Shown in pieces: positions 12,797 through 30,235 of a stretch of DNA of 39,525 nucleotides. The position numbers and the translations under genes were made by a program. The notes beneath the pieces were generated by a model. The model searched no databases. It saw only the letters and a program-made list of their open reading frames with translations, and was not told the DNA's origin. The stretch spans positions 1 to 39,525 of the IMG/VR virus record IMGVR_UViG_3300023184_000267; one strand, written 5' to 3'. This DNA is from a virus. The first letter of the stretch is position 1. Every line of letters starts with the position of its first letter.

Positions 12797-13022
12797 CTTT
12801 AATTGCTTCCACGTTAATGACTTTTCCTTCTAGCTTGCCTGTAAATCGGCGCGGAATGGCTACGACACATTTACCTTCGACGCCATCAATGGATGCAAAC
12901 ACCCATTGTGGATTGCGAGCTTGCGACTGAACGACGGCACGCAAGAACCTAGGCTTGTCTGGGCTTTCCGCATTAAGTTCTTCAATCGACTTCAGTTTAA
13001 CTTTAAGTGACTTTGCTTTCAT
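12753..13022 (-). CDS. Hypothetical small beta protein (89 aa)
   Basis: Starts in a TAATG overlap with the stop of the large terminase (13024-13020). Basic N-terminus (MKAKSLKVKLKSIEEL), then beta-type segments (FLRAVVQSQARNPQWVFASI, KCVVAIPRRFTGKLEGKVINV), compatible with a small barrel. No family recognised. Coupling to terminase suggests a packaging or head role. Confidence 0.65.
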   Translation of the reverse strand: MKAKSLKVKLKSIEELNAESPDKPRFLRAVVQSQARNPQWVFASIDGVEGKCVVAIPRRFTGKLEGKVINVEAIKDETGTSYRHEFLST

Positions 13023-14623
13023 TAGTATCCTCCTTGGGAACGGGTTTTAGGTTGAATTGTTTCATCTACAAAACGAATGTTATCTATGCAAGCGTAGCGA
13101 ATGACATCCACGGGGTCTTTCCATGCTTCATCGCTACCACCGTCTCCCGTGTATTCCTGTAAGGCTGTGATGATGTTGTCGCAACGCTCTGAGACGTAGA
13201 AGCGGGGACGGTTGATGCTATCCATCTTTGCTTTGCGATTGTAGGCCATCTTGGTCTGAATGGCCTGTATGCCATCCTCGATGTCCAAGCCCGGCGCAGG
13301 GATGAACGTAAGGCCGTTATCAGCTAAGTCCTCGATGATCGAACTAGCCCCGTTCTGAGATTGGTACTTAGCTGCACCTAGGCGTGGGTCAATGAGACGT
13401 TCTGTTATCTCCTCACCATTGTCGCTCTCGCAGCGGGTAATTAGCTCAACGTAGTCCTTAATGCCGTAGCCGAGTCCCTTACTGCCTTCGCCGCCAATCC
13501 ACTTGCCGCCATGCCACTTGGCCCAGTCGCCCACATTAACGTCAGGCCACTCACGATAGACGTAGTAGCTCTCGCTCTCATCCACGCCAATCCAGCACAT
13601 AAACCAGTTCTTACGACCAGCAGGATCAAGGATGAGATAGCGAGTTAAGTCTTTAGGAATGGCATCATGCTTGATGACGTTCACCTCGCGGGAGAACATA
13701 GGGAAACGTGTGGACGCGCTCTTCGTAGGAATGCCATAGGCACGGGTGAGGATTTCTTCCTCGCTCCGTCCTTTCAAGTCTTGGGCAATACGCTCATAGC
13801 CGCCGAAGGGATTGTCCTTGGAATGGAAATAGATGATGCCGCTATTTCTATTTGCCGAGTGTTGTACAAACGGAACGGCCCTATCATTTAGAAGTTCTGC
13901 AACCTTTGTTTCAATCGTTCGCGCCTTTTCCAGATAGTCTCGCACAACCTCCGTGTAGCCATCAATGGGAGTGAACGTAACAATAATTTTAGCGTTTCTT
14001 GTAGCAAGTCGAAAACGAAGAGTAGCGAGCAGCTCAGGGCCAATGAGATACTCATCACACCAAGCGCCGATGTTAAGCCAAACAGGTTCACGGCTGCCAA
14101 GCTCTGCGCCTTCCAAGATGGTGTCGTTGTTGAGGAATTGGGCATAGGTTTTAAAGATGATGTGGCTCTTAGTCCCTGGCAAAATTAAACTACTCTTAGA
14201 GAAACCATTCTTACGGGTGTAGCTGATGTTCTCTTCTGCGCTCAGAGTCTTCTTCCTCAGCTCTTCCGGCAACGCATCATAGATGGCGCTCTGCTGCTGT
14301 CTAATGGACACATCCGCATTCTGAGCAAAGCACATAATGACACTACCTGGGTTGGTCATAGCAGCCTTCACCACAGCCGTAGCTGCCCACGTTGTCTTAG
14401 AAGACCGATTGCCGCCACTTACAAGCAATTCGTTGAACTCCTCCATCAACTCCTCTGCCCGCTTCCAATGAGGTAGCTTAAAGCCATATCTGTAAGGATC
14501 ACGCTGACTATTCTCAATGGCCTGATGGTAGATGTCGAACAGGTTGGCTAGCGTCTCTGGCTTCATCCGTGCCATCTCCTCGTTCGTAGGAGGAACCAAT
14601 ATAGGATGCTTCTTCCAAATCAT
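13022..14623 (-). CDS. terL: Terminase large subunit (TerL)
   Basis: 533 residues, full length for the family. ATPase: Walker A SGGNRSSKTT (residues 69-78, K76), Walker B WLNIGAWCDE (D190, catalytic E191) and the coupling motif VTFTPIDG (about 215-222). RNase H-like nuclease: D333 in YLILDPAGRK, D412 in RLIDPRLGA, and C-terminal DPVDVIRY (D503/D506). It cuts concatemers and pumps DNA through the portal. The start overlaps the small-subunit stop (ATGA at 14623-14620). Confidence 0.95.
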   Translation of the reverse strand: MIWKKHPILVPPTNEEMARMKPETLANLFDIYHQAIENSQRDPYRYGFKLPHWKRAEELMEEFNELLVSGGNRSSKTTWAATAVVKAAMTNPGSVIMCFAQNADVSIRQQQSAIYDALPEELRKKTLSAEENISYTRKNGFSKSSLILPGTKSHIIFKTYAQFLNNDTILEGAELGSREPVWLNIGAWCDEYLIGPELLATLRFRLATRNAKIIVTFTPIDGYTEVVRDYLEKARTIETKVAELLNDRAVPFVQHSANRNSGIIYFHSKDNPFGGYERIAQDLKGRSEEEILTRAYGIPTKSASTRFPMFSREVNVIKHDAIPKDLTRYLILDPAGRKNWFMCWIGVDESESYYVYREWPDVNVGDWAKWHGGKWIGGEGSKGLGYGIKDYVELITRCESDNGEEITERLIDPRLGAAKYQSQNGASSIIEDLADNGLTFIPAPGLDIEDGIQAIQTKMAYNRKAKMDSINRPRFYVSERCDNIITALQEYTGDGGSDEAWKDPVDVIRYACIDNIRFVDETIQPKTRSQGGY

Positions 14624-19415: not shown

Positions 19416-19435
19416 ACCTATTGACAGACCTCATG

Positions 19436-19444
19436 TGATACAAT
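19436..19444 (+). promoter_or_regulatory. Extended -10 promoter for the 19.5-kb RNA
   Basis: TGA-TACAAT at 19436-19444 is an extended -10 with five of six consensus matches, resembling the minus-strand elements at 10140 and 7980. TTGACA lies at 19421-19426 but only 12 bases away, too close to act as a standard -35. Predicted start about 19451. Confidence 0.6.
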
Positions 19445-19450
19445 CCCCTA

Positions 19451-19559
19451 GTCCAATTAGTCGGTGACTCGACTTGAAGCAATTTCCGTATTATCTCCCG
19501 TAAAAGGTGGTTAATACACCGAGAAGCCTCAGAGCGAGTCACCGCTCTGGGGCTTTCTT
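19451..19559 (+). ncRNA. Short RNA/leader with terminator and self-complementary switch
   Basis: About 110 nt from the predicted start to the T-tract, with no gene inside. CGGTGACTCG (19462-19471) is the exact reverse complement of CGAGTCACCG (19535-19544), which is the loop and inner stem of the terminator. Pairing of the two would open the terminator, so this is either an attenuator controlling the gene at 19560 and the region beyond, or a small RNA closed by a pseudoknot. No known riboswitch or tRNA motif is seen. Confidence 0.6.
19524..19559 (+). terminator. Strong intrinsic terminator directly before a start codon
   Basis: AAGCCTCAGAGCG (19524-19536) pairs over 13 positions (one G-T) with CGCTCTGGGGCTT (19543-19555), loop AGTCAC, followed by TTTCTT. 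The next ATG begins at 19560, immediately after the T-tract, so the hairpin would also hide the ribosome-binding region of any read-through transcript. Confidence 0.85.
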
Positions 19560-19820
19560 ATGTCCACAATACAAATTCCACGCATTACTGACATCACGGG
19601 CCGCAAGTCCGCGCAGGATAGTGCTGCGGATAAGGAATGGTCTAAAGCTGCTTCAGAGTATCAATTCGCTAAAGAGCGAGACAAGCAGTTGAAGCAAGCA
19701 AATCAAGAGTTGGCTAAGTTAAGCCATAAACGTAAAAAGTTTAAGACTAAAAAACCCGCTAATCCGTCTTGGAAGCGAAACAAATACAAGGAGGTAATGG
19801 AAAAAACCAGAAGTTTCTAA
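19560..19820 (+). CDS. Lysine-rich small protein (86 aa), putative
   Basis: Starts right after a terminator hairpin, so expression needs read-through. The sequence looks coding: an N-terminal part (TIQIPRITDITGRK), a charged coiled coil (SEYQFAKERDKQLKQANQEL) and a very basic tail (HKRKKFKTKKPANPSWKR) that should bind nucleic acid. The stop borders the structured non-coding region, which suggests a link with that RNA, such as a dedicated RNA-binding partner (inference). It could also be a chance reading frame inside a larger RNA. Confidence 0.55.
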   Translation: MSTIQIPRITDITGRKSAQDSAADKEWSKAASEYQFAKERDKQLKQANQELAKLSHKRKKFKTKKPANPSWKRNKYKEVMEKTRSF

Positions 19821-20290
19821 AACGTGTCTGCCAATCGTCTAAGGGACTCCCCTTAAGATCGCTAGGGACAGACTAAGCCAAAATCGGGCATTACCCACGG
19901 CATCCCTCAAATTACGCACCATGTTTATCATGGGCGTTGTTCATACTCAGCGAAACCAATAAGCTCAGTATTCTAGCGCGGCCTTGAAATTGTTAGACCA
20001 AGCCGCTTAATAAGGCGTCGTAAGACGTGAACTCTTATCTTCAGGGAAAGCTTTGAAACCTCGGGCAATGGCCTACTAGCGGGGGGATAAGGCGACAAGG
20101 GACTCATCCTCATATAACGGGAGTTCTTTTACAGCAGTTCATTCCAGCAATGGGTGAACTGTGCTCAAAGGGTTCTTTCCTATATTCGGGAGTGTCTTTA
20201 CTTCTGGACTACAAGCCGCGAAATGGAAAGCGGCACAGCAGGAAAACCTCAAGAATACATTTGACTCATGCGGTTTGGAAAAGAAGAAAT
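19821..20290 (+). ncRNA. Candidate large structured RNA (about 470 nt)
   Basis: No gene in 553 bases, but many compact hairpins in order: GTCTGCC/GG-A-CAGAC (19826-19873) around TAAGGG/CCCTTA; ACGC-A-CCATG/CATGGGCGT (19914-19937); ATACT-AGC/GCT-AGTAT (19943-19971); GCGG-CTTG/CAAGCCGC (19978-20006); CGTC-GTAA-GACG (20016-20027); GAACT/AGTTC (20029/20122) enclosing CTTATC/GATAAG (20034/20086); CAGTTCA-TCCA-GCAA-TGGG-TGAACTG (20135-20161); GCCGC/GCGGC (20215-20234). Two loops are GNRA. I cannot match it to tmRNA, RNase P or a group I intron; the class of large ornate phage RNAs (GOLLD, ROOL) is the nearest idea. Ends and strand are inferred. Confidence 0.6.
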
Positions 20291-20309
20291 AAATTAAATA
20301 AAACTTGAA

Positions 20310-20364
20310 CTAGGAGCAAAAATCTAAACAAATAGCTAGGAAATCAACTCGGAAACTACTAGGA
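20310..20364 (+). repeat. Three CTAGGA copies in the leader of the next gene
   Basis: CTAGGA at 20310, 20336 and 20359 (spacings 26 and 23) in an A-rich leader before the ATG at 20374. Each contains AGGA, so they could be ribosome-binding decoys or protein-binding repeats; short enough to be chance. Confidence 0.35.
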
Positions 20365-20373
20365 AGCTAAAAC

Positions 20374-21190: not shown

Positions 21191-21490
21191 ATGAACGCCT
21201 CAGAAATTATGCAAAATGTGCGGTATTTGCTCAATAAGCACTACCCGATTTATGCTACGGGATTCGCCAAAGGGATTAACGACAAGGAATACAAATTCCG
21301 CAAACCAATCACGGCCAAGGAAGCTCTGGACGTTTACACTGACCATCTGGCGGGGATGTCTTACAAGCAGATACAGAAGCGAAGCGGGCTTTCCCAGCCA
21401 TCGGTCTATCGAATCATTCAGCAAAATCGGGACAACAATAGTCCAACACTAGAGAACATTAGCTGGAAAAAACCAAAGAAAATCAAATGA
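21191..21490 (+). CDS. HTH DNA-binding protein (99 aa)
   Basis: Residues about 49-80 (YTDHLAGMSYKQIQKRSGLS QPSVYRIIQQ) are a Hin/resolvase-type helix-turn-helix, like the gene just before it but otherwise different. The basic tail SWKKPKKIK is encoded by the same 23-base string that serves as the leader of the gene at 22137. Overlaps the next start by 4 bases. Likely regulator. Confidence 0.7.
   Translation: MNASEIMQNVRYLLNKHYPIYATGFAKGINDKEYKFRKPITAKEALDVYTDHLAGMSYKQIQKRSGLSQPSVYRIIQQNRDNNSPTLENISWKKPKKIK
21468..21490 (+). repeat. 23-bp leader repeat, copy 1
   Basis: AAAAACCAAAGAAAATCAAA plus TGA, identical to 22118-22140. In this copy it encodes the end of the HTH protein and contains the ATG of the 210-aa gene at 21487. 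A-rich, no SD, probably a translation-initiation cassette. Confidence 0.75.
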
Positions 21491-22119
21491 GCGACACACC
21501 ATCATACTATGTGTTTCAAAGAAAACCGTTTGCACTTAATGAATCGGTAAAAAACGTGCTTTGCAAGAAAAATGATGGAATAATTGAAGTATTCAGTTGC
21601 CCACTTAAGGCGTTGTATTCAGGTCGAGGTGAGTTTTGTCACAAGGTGGAAATCTCTGGATGTATTAGATTGGCAAGACAACGTTTTAATTTTGATGGTA
21701 CGCAAGCAAGCATCGAGGATATATTTGAGGTGGATGATTTCAAGCCCGTTGAAATTATTGATTCGGGCTTATTAATGAGAAGGTTCGCTGCCGATCTTTC
21801 CGTCGAATCATCCGAGCCGTATAAAAATTTGCAAGGCCGTGGGGATGGCTGGACAGATGAGTTTATTGATTATCTTGAAACGCTGAATGAAGACTGGAGA
21901 GAAAAAAACCAATCGCAGTATTCAGTTGGCCCCAATCAACTTATGCGCGCAATGGTTAATCCATACCCAGCATACGCACTCTTGGATGTTCTGGATATGT
22001 TTTATATGATGGCACGAATACATAAAAAAGATCACACACAGGTTAAAGAAATGTTTAAGAAAAAAATAGACACTCTTTTCGATTTGCGCAAAATTCAATT
22101 AAAACAAAATTGTTACTAA
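21487..22119 (+). CDS. Hypothetical protein (210 aa)
   Basis: A/T-rich compared with neighbours. N-terminal mixed alpha/beta part (YVFQRKPFALNESVKNVLCK), acidic middle (ASIEDIFEVDDFKPVEIID), and helical C-terminus with AYALLDVLDMFYMMARIHKK, basic at the end. Bracketed by the two copies of a 23-bp leader repeat, so it may have been inserted by recombination between them. No function recognised. Confidence 0.65.
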   Translation: MSDTPSYYVFQRKPFALNESVKNVLCKKNDGIIEVFSCPLKALYSGRGEFCHKVEISGCIRLARQRFNFDGTQASIEDIFEVDDFKPVEIIDSGLLMRRFAADLSVESSEPYKNLQGRGDGWTDEFIDYLETLNEDWREKNQSQYSVGPNQLMRAMVNPYPAYALLDVLDMFYMMARIHKKDHTQVKEMFKKKIDTLFDLRKIQLKQNCY

Positions 22120-22853: not shown

Positions 22854-23069
22854 ATGAATGGCAAAGGCGACAGAAATAGGTCTTGCACCCCGCAATACCG
22901 CGATAATTACGAGTATATTTTCAGAAACAAAAACAAATGCAAACAGAACAAATCTTCATCGGAGGTTGTCTCGCAGACGCCTCCCTCATCGACGACGCAA
23001 TCAGTGGAGGACTACAAGGACAGGCTTTTACGCAACCCGCCTACCTATCGCTCTTCAAATCTCTGGTAG
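22854..23069 (+). CDS. GKGD-type small phage protein overlapping the helicase gene (71 aa)
   Basis: The first 26 residues (MNGKGDRNRSCTPQYRDNYE YIFRNK) match a very common small phage protein type with a GKGD start and an aromatic F-x-K end, function unknown. Usually such proteins stop soon after; here the frame continues 133 bases into the helicase gene, where the residues look like an out-of-frame shadow. Either a lost stop codon gave a C-terminal extension, or only the first part matters. Confidence 0.5.
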   Translation: MNGKGDRNRSCTPQYRDNYEYIFRNKNKCKQNKSSSEVVSQTPPSSTTQSVEDYKDRLLRNPPTYRSSNLW

Positions 23070-24199
23070 CCCTTAGGAGCAAGGGACAGCTTACAGACAC
23101 CTCCAGCGTTTATATGGCTATGGGCAAGGAATGCCCAGCCACAGAGCTATTTGAGGCCGAAAAATGCTGCTCTAGCAGTATTACTGGCAAAAAAGCCCTT
23201 AAGAAGCTCATTTGGGAAGGTCAGCTAGCCATCCTCAAACCAGCCCTCCAGGACGCCATTGCGTGCATTTCTAGAGACTCTAAGCCCGAAGAGGTGTCAA
23301 AGGCCATAGAAGGGCTACAAGGGCTGTTAAAACCAACGGAATCGGAGGCTCCAAGCCTTGAGCAGCTCATTGGGGAGGTGAAGCTCTGGGCTGAACAGGA
23401 AATCGCGGGCACTAGGGACAACAAGGACGTTGTAACAACTGGTCTTCCTTCGTTCGACAACCTAGCCCAGCCCATCGAGGCCCACGAATACGTCGTAGTA
23501 GGCGCTAGAACCTCCATAGGTAAGTCCTCGTTCATGTCACAGATAGCCAGCCATAACCTCAATCGCGGCCTACGAGTGGCCTATTTCACCCTAGAAACCT
23601 CGGCTAACGCTGTAATTAAGCAGATAGCAGGACAAAGGGCCAGGGTGAACCTACGCAACATGAGCCATGAGTTTGCCGATAAACAAGCCGATTACTTTTC
23701 GGCACTTAAACGTCTAAGCGGACAACAGCTTAGGGTGTTTGATAAGGACATGAGCATCACGCAAATTGAGAATAGATGCCGATTGCTCGCCGCCTCTTGG
23801 AAACCTCAGTTGGTCATCCTCGACTACCTAGGGCTAATTCGCGGCACAGATGGCTCAGCATACGAACGGATGGGTCAGCTCTCTAAGGCTATGATCCCAT
23901 TGAAGAAGACTTTGGGTTGTGCGCTCATCGTCGCGGCTCAGCTCAATCGCGGAAACGAACGTGAAGACAGAGCACCAAGCCGTACAGACTTCAGAGACGC
24001 TGGCTCCATCGAGGAAGACGCCCACCGCATCATTGCCTTACATCGCCCTAGCAAGAGCCACAGCGGAAGCCCCCAAGAGCTAGGACAGTCCACCTATGAC
24101 TACGAAGTGCTTCAGTTGAAGCTCAGGGATGGCCCATTGGCATTCTCCCGCATCAAATACTTTGCCAACCACACATGGTTTTATGAAGAATCCAACTAA
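22937..24199 (+). CDS. Replicative DnaB-type helicase
   Basis: 420 residues. N-terminal DnaB-like domain (about 1-130, EQIFIGGCLADASLIDDAIS), then RecA-like motor: Walker A GARTSIGKSS (189-198), H1a FTLE (E220), Walker B LVILDYLGLI (D296), H3 AAQLNRGNE (Q335), and DFRDAGSIEEDAH (351-363). A hexamer would unwind the fork 5' to 3'. No primase domain is fused and none is seen nearby, so host primase is probably used. The leader is A-rich without SD. Confidence 0.9.
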   Translation: MQTEQIFIGGCLADASLIDDAISGGLQGQAFTQPAYLSLFKSLVALRSKGQLTDTSSVYMAMGKECPATELFEAEKCCSSSITGKKALKKLIWEGQLAILKPALQDAIACISRDSKPEEVSKAIEGLQGLLKPTESEAPSLEQLIGEVKLWAEQEIAGTRDNKDVVTTGLPSFDNLAQPIEAHEYVVVGARTSIGKSSFMSQIASHNLNRGLRVAYFTLETSANAVIKQIAGQRARVNLRNMSHEFADKQADYFSALKRLSGQQLRVFDKDMSITQIENRCRLLAASWKPQLVILDYLGLIRGTDGSAYERMGQLSKAMIPLKKTLGCALIVAAQLNRGNEREDRAPSRTDFRDAGSIEEDAHRIIALHRPSKSHSGSPQELGQSTYDYEVLQLKLRDGPLAFSRIKYFANHTWFYEESN

Positions 24200-24626
24200 T
24201 AGTGTGCATTTTTCAAGCAAGTCCGATAATTGGGCTACGCCACAGGATTTTTTTGATAAATGCAATCAGGAGTTTGGCCCATTTGATTTAGATGTTTGTG
24301 CTTCTGAATCCAATCATAAATGTAATAAATTTTATACGGTAGAAAACGATGGGTTGCAACAAGAATGGAATGGTAGGATATGGATGAATCCACCGTATGG
24401 AAGAACCATAAAACAATGGATGAAGAAGGCTTTTGAATCAGCTAACACAACCGCGCAAATCGTGGTTTGTTTAGTTCCAGCTAGGACGGACACGGCGTGG
24501 TGGCATGATTATGCGGCTAATGGACAAGTTAGATTTATTCGCGGAAGACTTAAATTTGGAGGCCATCAAAACAGCGCACCGTTTCCATCGGCTTTAATTA
24601 TTTTTAGAAAACATGAAACAAATTGA
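24183..24626 (+). CDS. DNA N6-adenine methyltransferase, phage Dam type
   Basis: 147 residues from the ATG at 24183, overlapping the helicase end by 17 bp. Matches the phage DNA N-6-adenine-methyltransferase family (PF05869): SDNWATPQDFFDKCNQEF, FDLDVCA, catalytic NPPY (69-72) in WMNPPYG, VCLVPARTDTAWWH and RGRLKFGG. Likely protects phage DNA from restriction. A/T-richer than the helicase gene, so probably acquired separately. No cognate nuclease is adjacent, so it looks like an orphan methylase. Confidence 0.9.
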   Translation: MKNPTNSVHFSSKSDNWATPQDFFDKCNQEFGPFDLDVCASESNHKCNKFYTVENDGLQQEWNGRIWMNPPYGRTIKQWMKKAFESANTTAQIVVCLVPARTDTAWWHDYAANGQVRFIRGRLKFGGHQNSAPFPSALIIFRKHETN

Positions 24627-30162: not shown

Positions 30163-30235
30163 GCTTCAATAGCTCAGTTGGTAGAGCACTAGTTTTGTAA
30201 ACTAGCGGTCGTTGGTTCAAATCCGACTTGAAGCT
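30163..30235 (+). tRNA. tRNA-Thr (anticodon UGU)
   Basis: Canonical 73-nt cloverleaf: acceptor GCTTCAA/TTGAAGC, D-arm GCTC-AGTTGGTA-GAGC, anticodon arm CTAGT-TTTGTAA-ACTAG with TGT anticodon, variable CGGTC, T-arm GTTGG-TTCAAAT-CCGAC, discriminator T. CCA is not encoded. Reads ACA (threonine). It lies 3 bases after the tRNA-like element and may supplement host tRNA supply. Confidence 0.95.

Follow-up and report, generated by a model that had tools for sequence, protein, structure and literature searches.

What GOLLD, ROOL and other large structured RNAs of phages do is still not known. The question here is what is encoded by a 553-bp gap (19821-20373) in an otherwise gene-packed block of the virus record analysed here, and whether an RNA made from it would act on the transcript that carries it or as a machine of its own. 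The window, i.e. the whole stretch of DNA that was analysed, is an entire IMG/VR virus record of 39,525 bases. An earlier note made from the letters of the window had proposed that the gap holds a large structured RNA with the look of GOLLD or ROOL, which it could not match to a known class. The largest ORF in the gap is a 52-aa chance frame. Syntenic homologues, covarying pseudoknots and a covarying loop-loop pair make it almost certain that the locus carries a conserved RNA structure, and they support a large structured RNA outside the known classes.

The RNA locus lies within the early region, which is encoded on the + strand and comprises a DnaB-like helicase (22937-24199), a methyltransferase and HNH endonucleases; the locus is on the same strand as the helicase and upstream of it, and the terminase is on the - strand (13022-14623). 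The methyltransferase frame (24129-24626) overlaps the end of the helicase gene; its mere 165 aa correspond to the interior of a family of 345 positions, and it may therefore be shortened. A 210-aa ORF at 21487-22119 had no relatives that we could find. A search with the helicase gave 31 viral loci as a starting set, and a syntenic non-coding block is present upstream of the helicase in 26 of them, and L013 has a copy that is truncated. Searches by DNA pattern and by terminase, the latter taking in the best 80 of at least 556 terminase relatives, added L073, L075, L078, L092, L093 and L104 to the RNA carriers. The syntenic RNA, built from two modules (a leader and a core), thus occurs in about 33 related phage contigs. 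Diverged lineages (L145, L155, L140 and the group of L159, L164, L171 and L173) keep the layout with different sequences, and in the lineages seen the locus is upstream of early or replication genes on the same strand, the next genes being different. Profile searches gave no RNA copy in L028-L030, which share 64-65% helicase identity, and an annotated phage collection held no similar DNA (only short chance matches with the window as query, and none with L018 or L019). A scan of genome contigs with the helicase alignment returned one unrelated 27% match and no host. One contig, L076 (IMGVR_UViG_3300020042_011731), was considered as a carrier of two RNA copies, a reading that we rejected because two related phages are joined in it head to head as a chimera, the halves of which carry the same region in opposite orientation at ~82% identity.

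The core lies on the + strand where the earlier note had placed it, but the interval of that note was incomplete, since the conserved locus begins at ~19445 with a leader that had been left out. This leader module (19445-19556, + strand, ~112 nt) is recognised by profile, blastn and folding: a profile of the relatives' leaders finds the window with E = 5e-23 (the profile alignment contains the window row), and blastn gives 77-84% identity to L006, L008, L009 and L018. Its order is a promoter-like element, a hairpin H1, a variable stretch, a terminator-like hairpin H3 and a T-tract. The leader begins at the promoter-like element in all lineages seen, and the element is kept in all relatives as an extended -10 (TGnTAnnnT) with TTGAC or similar upstream; in the window (19421-19444, + strand) it reads TTGACA, a 12-nt spacer and the extended -10 TGATACAAT. 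Spacers usually measure 16-18 nt; a length of 16 nt is found in L145, L155, L144, L159 and L173, whereas the window shares its 12 nt with types A and B and with L140. A sigma-70 promoter with a 17-nt spacer was ruled out for the window by the 12-nt distance. Because this -35 spacing is unusual and a standard sigma-70 scan did not report the element, we call it a promoter by position and extended -10 only, and its early timing and activity are likewise judged from position.

Hairpin H1 (GTCG-[GTGACT]-CGAC, 19460-19473, + strand) has a loop that is the exact complement of 19537-19542, which is the loop AGTCAC of the terminator-like hairpin H3 (GCCTCAGAGCG/CCGCTCTGGGGC followed by TTTCTT, 19526-19559, + strand). 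H3 and its T-tract are kept in all relatives, the stem tolerating G-U pairs, and the loops of H1 and H3 are reverse complements of each other well beyond the GTGACT/AGTCAC pair of the window: relatives have GAACTAG/CTAGTTC, GAACAAG/CTTGTTC, GTACTAG/CTAGTAC, GAATCAG/CTGATTC, GTACAAG/CTTGTAC, ATGACG/CGTCAT, ATGACA/TGTCAT and CTGACA/TGTCAG, and diverged lineages have TGTGAAGG/CCTTCAC (L145), TCTGCTAG/CTAGCAGA (L155), GGTCAAG/CTTGACC (L140) and GTGCGTGC/GCACGCAC (L144 and L158). Among 19 distinct AGCT-type leaders the helix between the loops is 100% paired, and in three of its pairs both partners have changed. As the MAFFT columns are off by one between the two leader types, the loop pairs of each type were counted separately. 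The 13 loop-pair variants across lineages are all complementary, and none of 100,000 permutations was as good. A motif search for such loop pairs over 2.7 Mb (both strands counted) recovered most known leaders and found those of L144 and L158, along with about a dozen apparently chance matches elsewhere. The group of L159, L164, L171 and L173 has a different leader, in which no pairing of H1 and terminator loops was found.

In L144 and L158 the leader is immediately before a protein gene, upstream of the terminase and on the expected strand. In the window an 86-aa lysine-rich ORF (19560-19820, + strand) lies between leader and core, where relatives have ~16 nt; this ORF is present in the window only, with no relative in the viral contigs and no PHROG match. 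The leader, which precedes a protein gene in the former and an ORF in the latter, is therefore a separable 5' element.

The core is best defined in the relatives. In types A and B and in L145 and L155 it opens with an H-type pseudoknot, PK1, with the stem ACGY-A-CC/GG-RCGU containing a bulged A and a loop GUUnnGG that pairs with a downstream CCnnAC. Across 22 sequences, 99.7% of PK1 cells are paired and 7 pairs are changed on both sides; covariation is 0.378, compared with 0.113 in shuffles and no more than 0.083 for slid partners, and pairing falls to 35-50% if the partner is shifted by 1-3 columns. The core helices of the relatives are 98.8% paired. A long-range helix Q is drawn by different strands in different lineages, i.e. 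GAAGAUUC/GAAUCUUC in type A, AGGGGAUUC/GAACCCCU with one bulge in L018, GAGACUUC/GAAGUCUC in L145, GGGAGCUUU/AAAGCUCCC in L155 and GUGCCGA/UCGGCAC in L173. Of 5,040 permutations only the matched assignment reaches the observed score, a test that is somewhat generous, as pairing was itself one of the reasons for choosing the strands of the diverged lineages. Helix P, which Q would cross in the relatives, is plausible and only partly supported; the case for pseudoknots in the core depends on P less than on PK1 and Q. Further helices drawn from L019, namely R (CGGUAUG/CAUACCG), M1, H8 and H9, were dropped because a column alignment gave them no support across both types, A and B.

In the window, the core spans ~19826-20240 on the + strand, and all helices named in the earlier note are found there. 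From 5' to 3', these and the additional elements are an extra 5' hairpin of this core (19826-19873; GTCTG-CC/GGG-A-CAGAC with inner TCTAAGGG/CCCTTAAGA, seen in the sequence and the MFE fold); the PK1 stem ACGC-A-CC..GG-GCGT with the bulged A of the relatives (19914-19964), which the note had drawn as ACGC-A-CCATG/CATGGGCGT (19914-19923/19929-19937); the hairpin GCGG-C-CTTG/CAAGCCGC (19978-19986/19999-20006); the GNRA-loop hairpin CGTC-GTAA-GACG (20016-20027); helix P (GAACTC 20029-20034/GAGTTC 20121-20126), the long-range pair of the note, enclosing CTTATC/GATAAG (20034-20039/20086-20091) and comparable to partly supported pairs in relatives; helix Q (AGGGAAAG 20043-20050/CTTTCCT 20175-20181), with an equivalent in other lineages; a hairpin CCTCG/CGGGG around GGGCAATGGCCTAC (20059-20084), which in L159, L164, L171 and L173 is CCACG/CGTGG around the same sequence; the GCAA-tetraloop hairpin CAGTTCA..CCA-GCAA-TGG..TGAACTG (20135-20161), kept in the same four; and a 3' hairpin GCCGC/GCGGC (20215-20234), which the relatives keep, four sequences having G-C in place of a C-G pair. 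A 3' tail, AACC [TCAAG..TTTGA] GGTTT (20235-20290), is common to L002, L006 and L008 only. All of these are on the + strand. The PK1 loop GTTTAT (19923-19928) can pair with ATAAGC (19959-19964), and the PK1 covariance model has its best window position where expected, at 4.7 bits, which is not significant by itself. Q and P cross in the same order as in the relatives, and would provide, with PK1, the H-type pseudoknot and a second, long-range pseudoknot. The core of the window matches close relatives in sequence at its 3' end only, and L159, L164, L171 and L173 in short pieces. Because layout and shared pieces match the relatives, we regard it as a probable divergent member of the class, the homology being drawn from layout and manually found helices and carrying no significant model score; the evidence for this core is weaker than that for the cores of the relatives.

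Minimum free energy folding gave z -2.5 for 19780-20330 (none of 100 shuffles as good), z -2.65 for 19824-20240, compared with -0.9 for the coding stretch just downstream, and z -4.56 for the leader (19445-19556). The folding energy of the core by itself is thus only moderately unusual, and it does not give the strand, because the reverse strand scores similarly; the G-U pairs in conserved helices favour an RNA from the + strand. The comparative evidence is far stronger than that from energy. Covariation and conservation, two properties on which the earlier note had staked its proposal, were looked at in the relatives, and the outcome favours an RNA.

Placing the RNA in GOLLD, ROOL or another Rfam class was not supported. 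With Rfam 15 at gathering scores (GOLLD, ROOL, HOLDH, tmRNA, RNase P and group I/II introns included) there was no match at the locus in the window, L002, L005, L006, L018 or L019, and permissive scans of the window, L018 and L019 returned only sub-threshold, mostly terminator-like matches. Searches of an open-access library for ornate phage RNAs and for kissing loops with terminators gave no description of such a layout, and we take this to be a large structured RNA of phages whose architecture has not previously been catalogued. It shares with ROOL and GOLLD a large size, extensive structure, pseudoknots and covarying kissing loops, some of which have been shown to be intermolecular in those RNAs (PMC12286853). 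The covariation-supported structure with pseudoknots is that of the relatives, the window core being matched by layout only. Whereas ROOL and GOLLD are often near phage tRNA islands and form homo-oligomeric RNA-only complexes, a single tRNA-Thr (30163-30235) lies ~10 kb from the present locus, the RNA consists of a leader, a terminator and a core that would head an early operon, with no covariance-model match, and its loop-loop pairs may be intra- or intermolecular. A second, tentative likeness is to the put RNA of HK022 (~70 nt, two stem-loops), which lies just downstream of an early promoter and suppresses termination (PMC9378689): here a hairpin RNA starts at a promoter-like element that would be early by its position, and it precedes terminators. 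In contrast to put, the loop-loop pair includes the terminator hairpin itself, and a pseudoknotted core of 300-415 nt follows. The packaging RNA of phi29 is a small phage RNA with two complementary, covarying loops that sits near the genome end and drives packaging, whereas the RNA described here would head the early operon and has no Rfam match. In the plasmid leaders of pT181 and pIP501, which are upstream of a conditional terminator, loop-loop recognition is by an antisense RNA acting in trans; here the complementary loops are within one transcript.

What could such an RNA do? A single promoter-like element was seen, and one or two terminator-like hairpins separate it from the first gene. 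Since the leader can stand directly before a protein gene (L144 and L158), and since this element is followed by terminators, a 5' element that controls elongation is favoured, and we therefore lean, at somewhat less than even confidence, towards RNA-level control of early-operon transcription in cis, by a mechanism that we infer at every step. The uncatalogued RNA would head the early operon and be transcribed on the + strand from the one upstream promoter. The nascent leader would end in an intrinsic-terminator hairpin with its loop paired to that of the hairpin made just before, and this pair would set how frequently polymerase passes the first terminator. The core with its two pseudoknots, made next, might help polymerase to continue (or to stop) before the first gene, in the manner of a cis-acting put-type RNA. 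Several points argue against this: the core is far larger than put; the loop-loop pair leaves the terminator stem intact and could mean either more or less termination; no such pairing was found in the L159 group; and a spacing of 12 nt, as in the window, is unusual. The scan that showed no promoter beyond the second terminator of L020 also misses the leader's own, and a downstream promoter may thus have been missed.

A close rival, which we consider a real if somewhat lesser possibility, is a free-standing ornate RNA that acts in trans: the core would build up in stable form, either by itself or together with the leader, and would bind a further copy of itself (homo-oligomer), a protein of the phage or the host, or a different RNA, in line with what has been proposed for ROOL and GOLLD. 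Size and pseudoknotted architecture would fit this, as would kissing loops that covary in ROOL and GOLLD and are partly intermolecular there (PMC12286853). A 3' terminator closes the RNA in about half of the type A and B relatives (L009, L012, L015, L020, L022-L024, L027 and L076), as expected of a free-standing transcript and awkward for control in cis, and the downstream genes are not conserved; in the other half the terminator is missing and the RNA runs on into mRNA, which in turn speaks against a separate RNA, as do the position, which is similar in every lineage seen (heading the early region), and the lack of a visible core-specific promoter. The core also contains two internal direct repeats (AUGGAA..UUUGGCAGC; L019:6691-6840, with equivalents in L002-L027), the ends of which change in concert between phages (UUUGGCAGC, UUUGGAAGC, UUUGGAAAC, UUAAGCCAC, CGGGGAGC), as if both bind one partner; a complement of the UUUGGCAGC-type ends was found neither within the RNA nor consistently nearby. 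Finally, the trans reading could draw on loop pairs that turn over faster than their surroundings. In either case, the locus represents a further class without an Rfam match, one that keeps a constant genomic address where the early region begins, and the loop pair, with its natural compensatory variants, offers a simple, testable handle on whether such an RNA controls transcription or is a separate RNA machine.

The turnover of the loop pairs is seen between L004 and L005, where 6 of 14 positions in the loops are different, compared with 6 of 88 in the rest of the leader and 3 of 285 in the core, the pair being recoded on both sides (L004:5365-5481 vs. L005:4430-4546). In leader pairs that differ by ~5-15% elsewhere, the loop strands differ roughly 2.5 times as much, in comparisons of sequence pairs that are not independent; more distant leader pairs have no such excess. 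This recoding is explained by neither the cis nor the trans model. Fast turnover would fit a recognition code under selection to differ, which is suggestive only, and sequence-coded recognition, with the H1-terminator loop pair as a per-phage code for self/non-self early control or orthogonal self-assembly, seems to us unlikely overall. We are slightly more doubtful of its explicit form, in which the leader RNA of a phage acts only on its own kind, or RNA copies self-assemble only with one another, resembling plasmid incompatibility or c4-type immunity. It would account for a pair replaced on both sides between near-identical phages while the rest stays; neutral compensatory change could also explain this, the sequence pairs are non-independent, and the trans interaction is hypothetical. 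If true, the loop code would amount to RNA-based self/non-self control or to orthogonal assembly of a large phage RNA.

A role in replication, as an RNA primer or origin structure for the nearby DnaB-type helicase module, is less probable again. The helicase lies within about 3 kb downstream in types A and B and in the window, but is not adjacent, no origin features were noticed in passing, and the G-U pairs and pseudoknots imply that an RNA, and not a DNA fold, has been under selection. That the gap is ordinary spacer with chance hairpins, as the modest z-score of the core alone might suggest, is contradicted by covariation and syntenic conservation and can be practically dismissed.

Two contigs have unusual stretches next to the RNA. 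In L159, a long, near-pure G/C low-complexity run, possibly an assembly artefact, lies just upstream of the locus (2620-2800, - strand), and in L002 the gene downstream of the RNA contains a run of near-identical repeats (GGTTCTGCGGATGCTGCG; L002:4850-5000).
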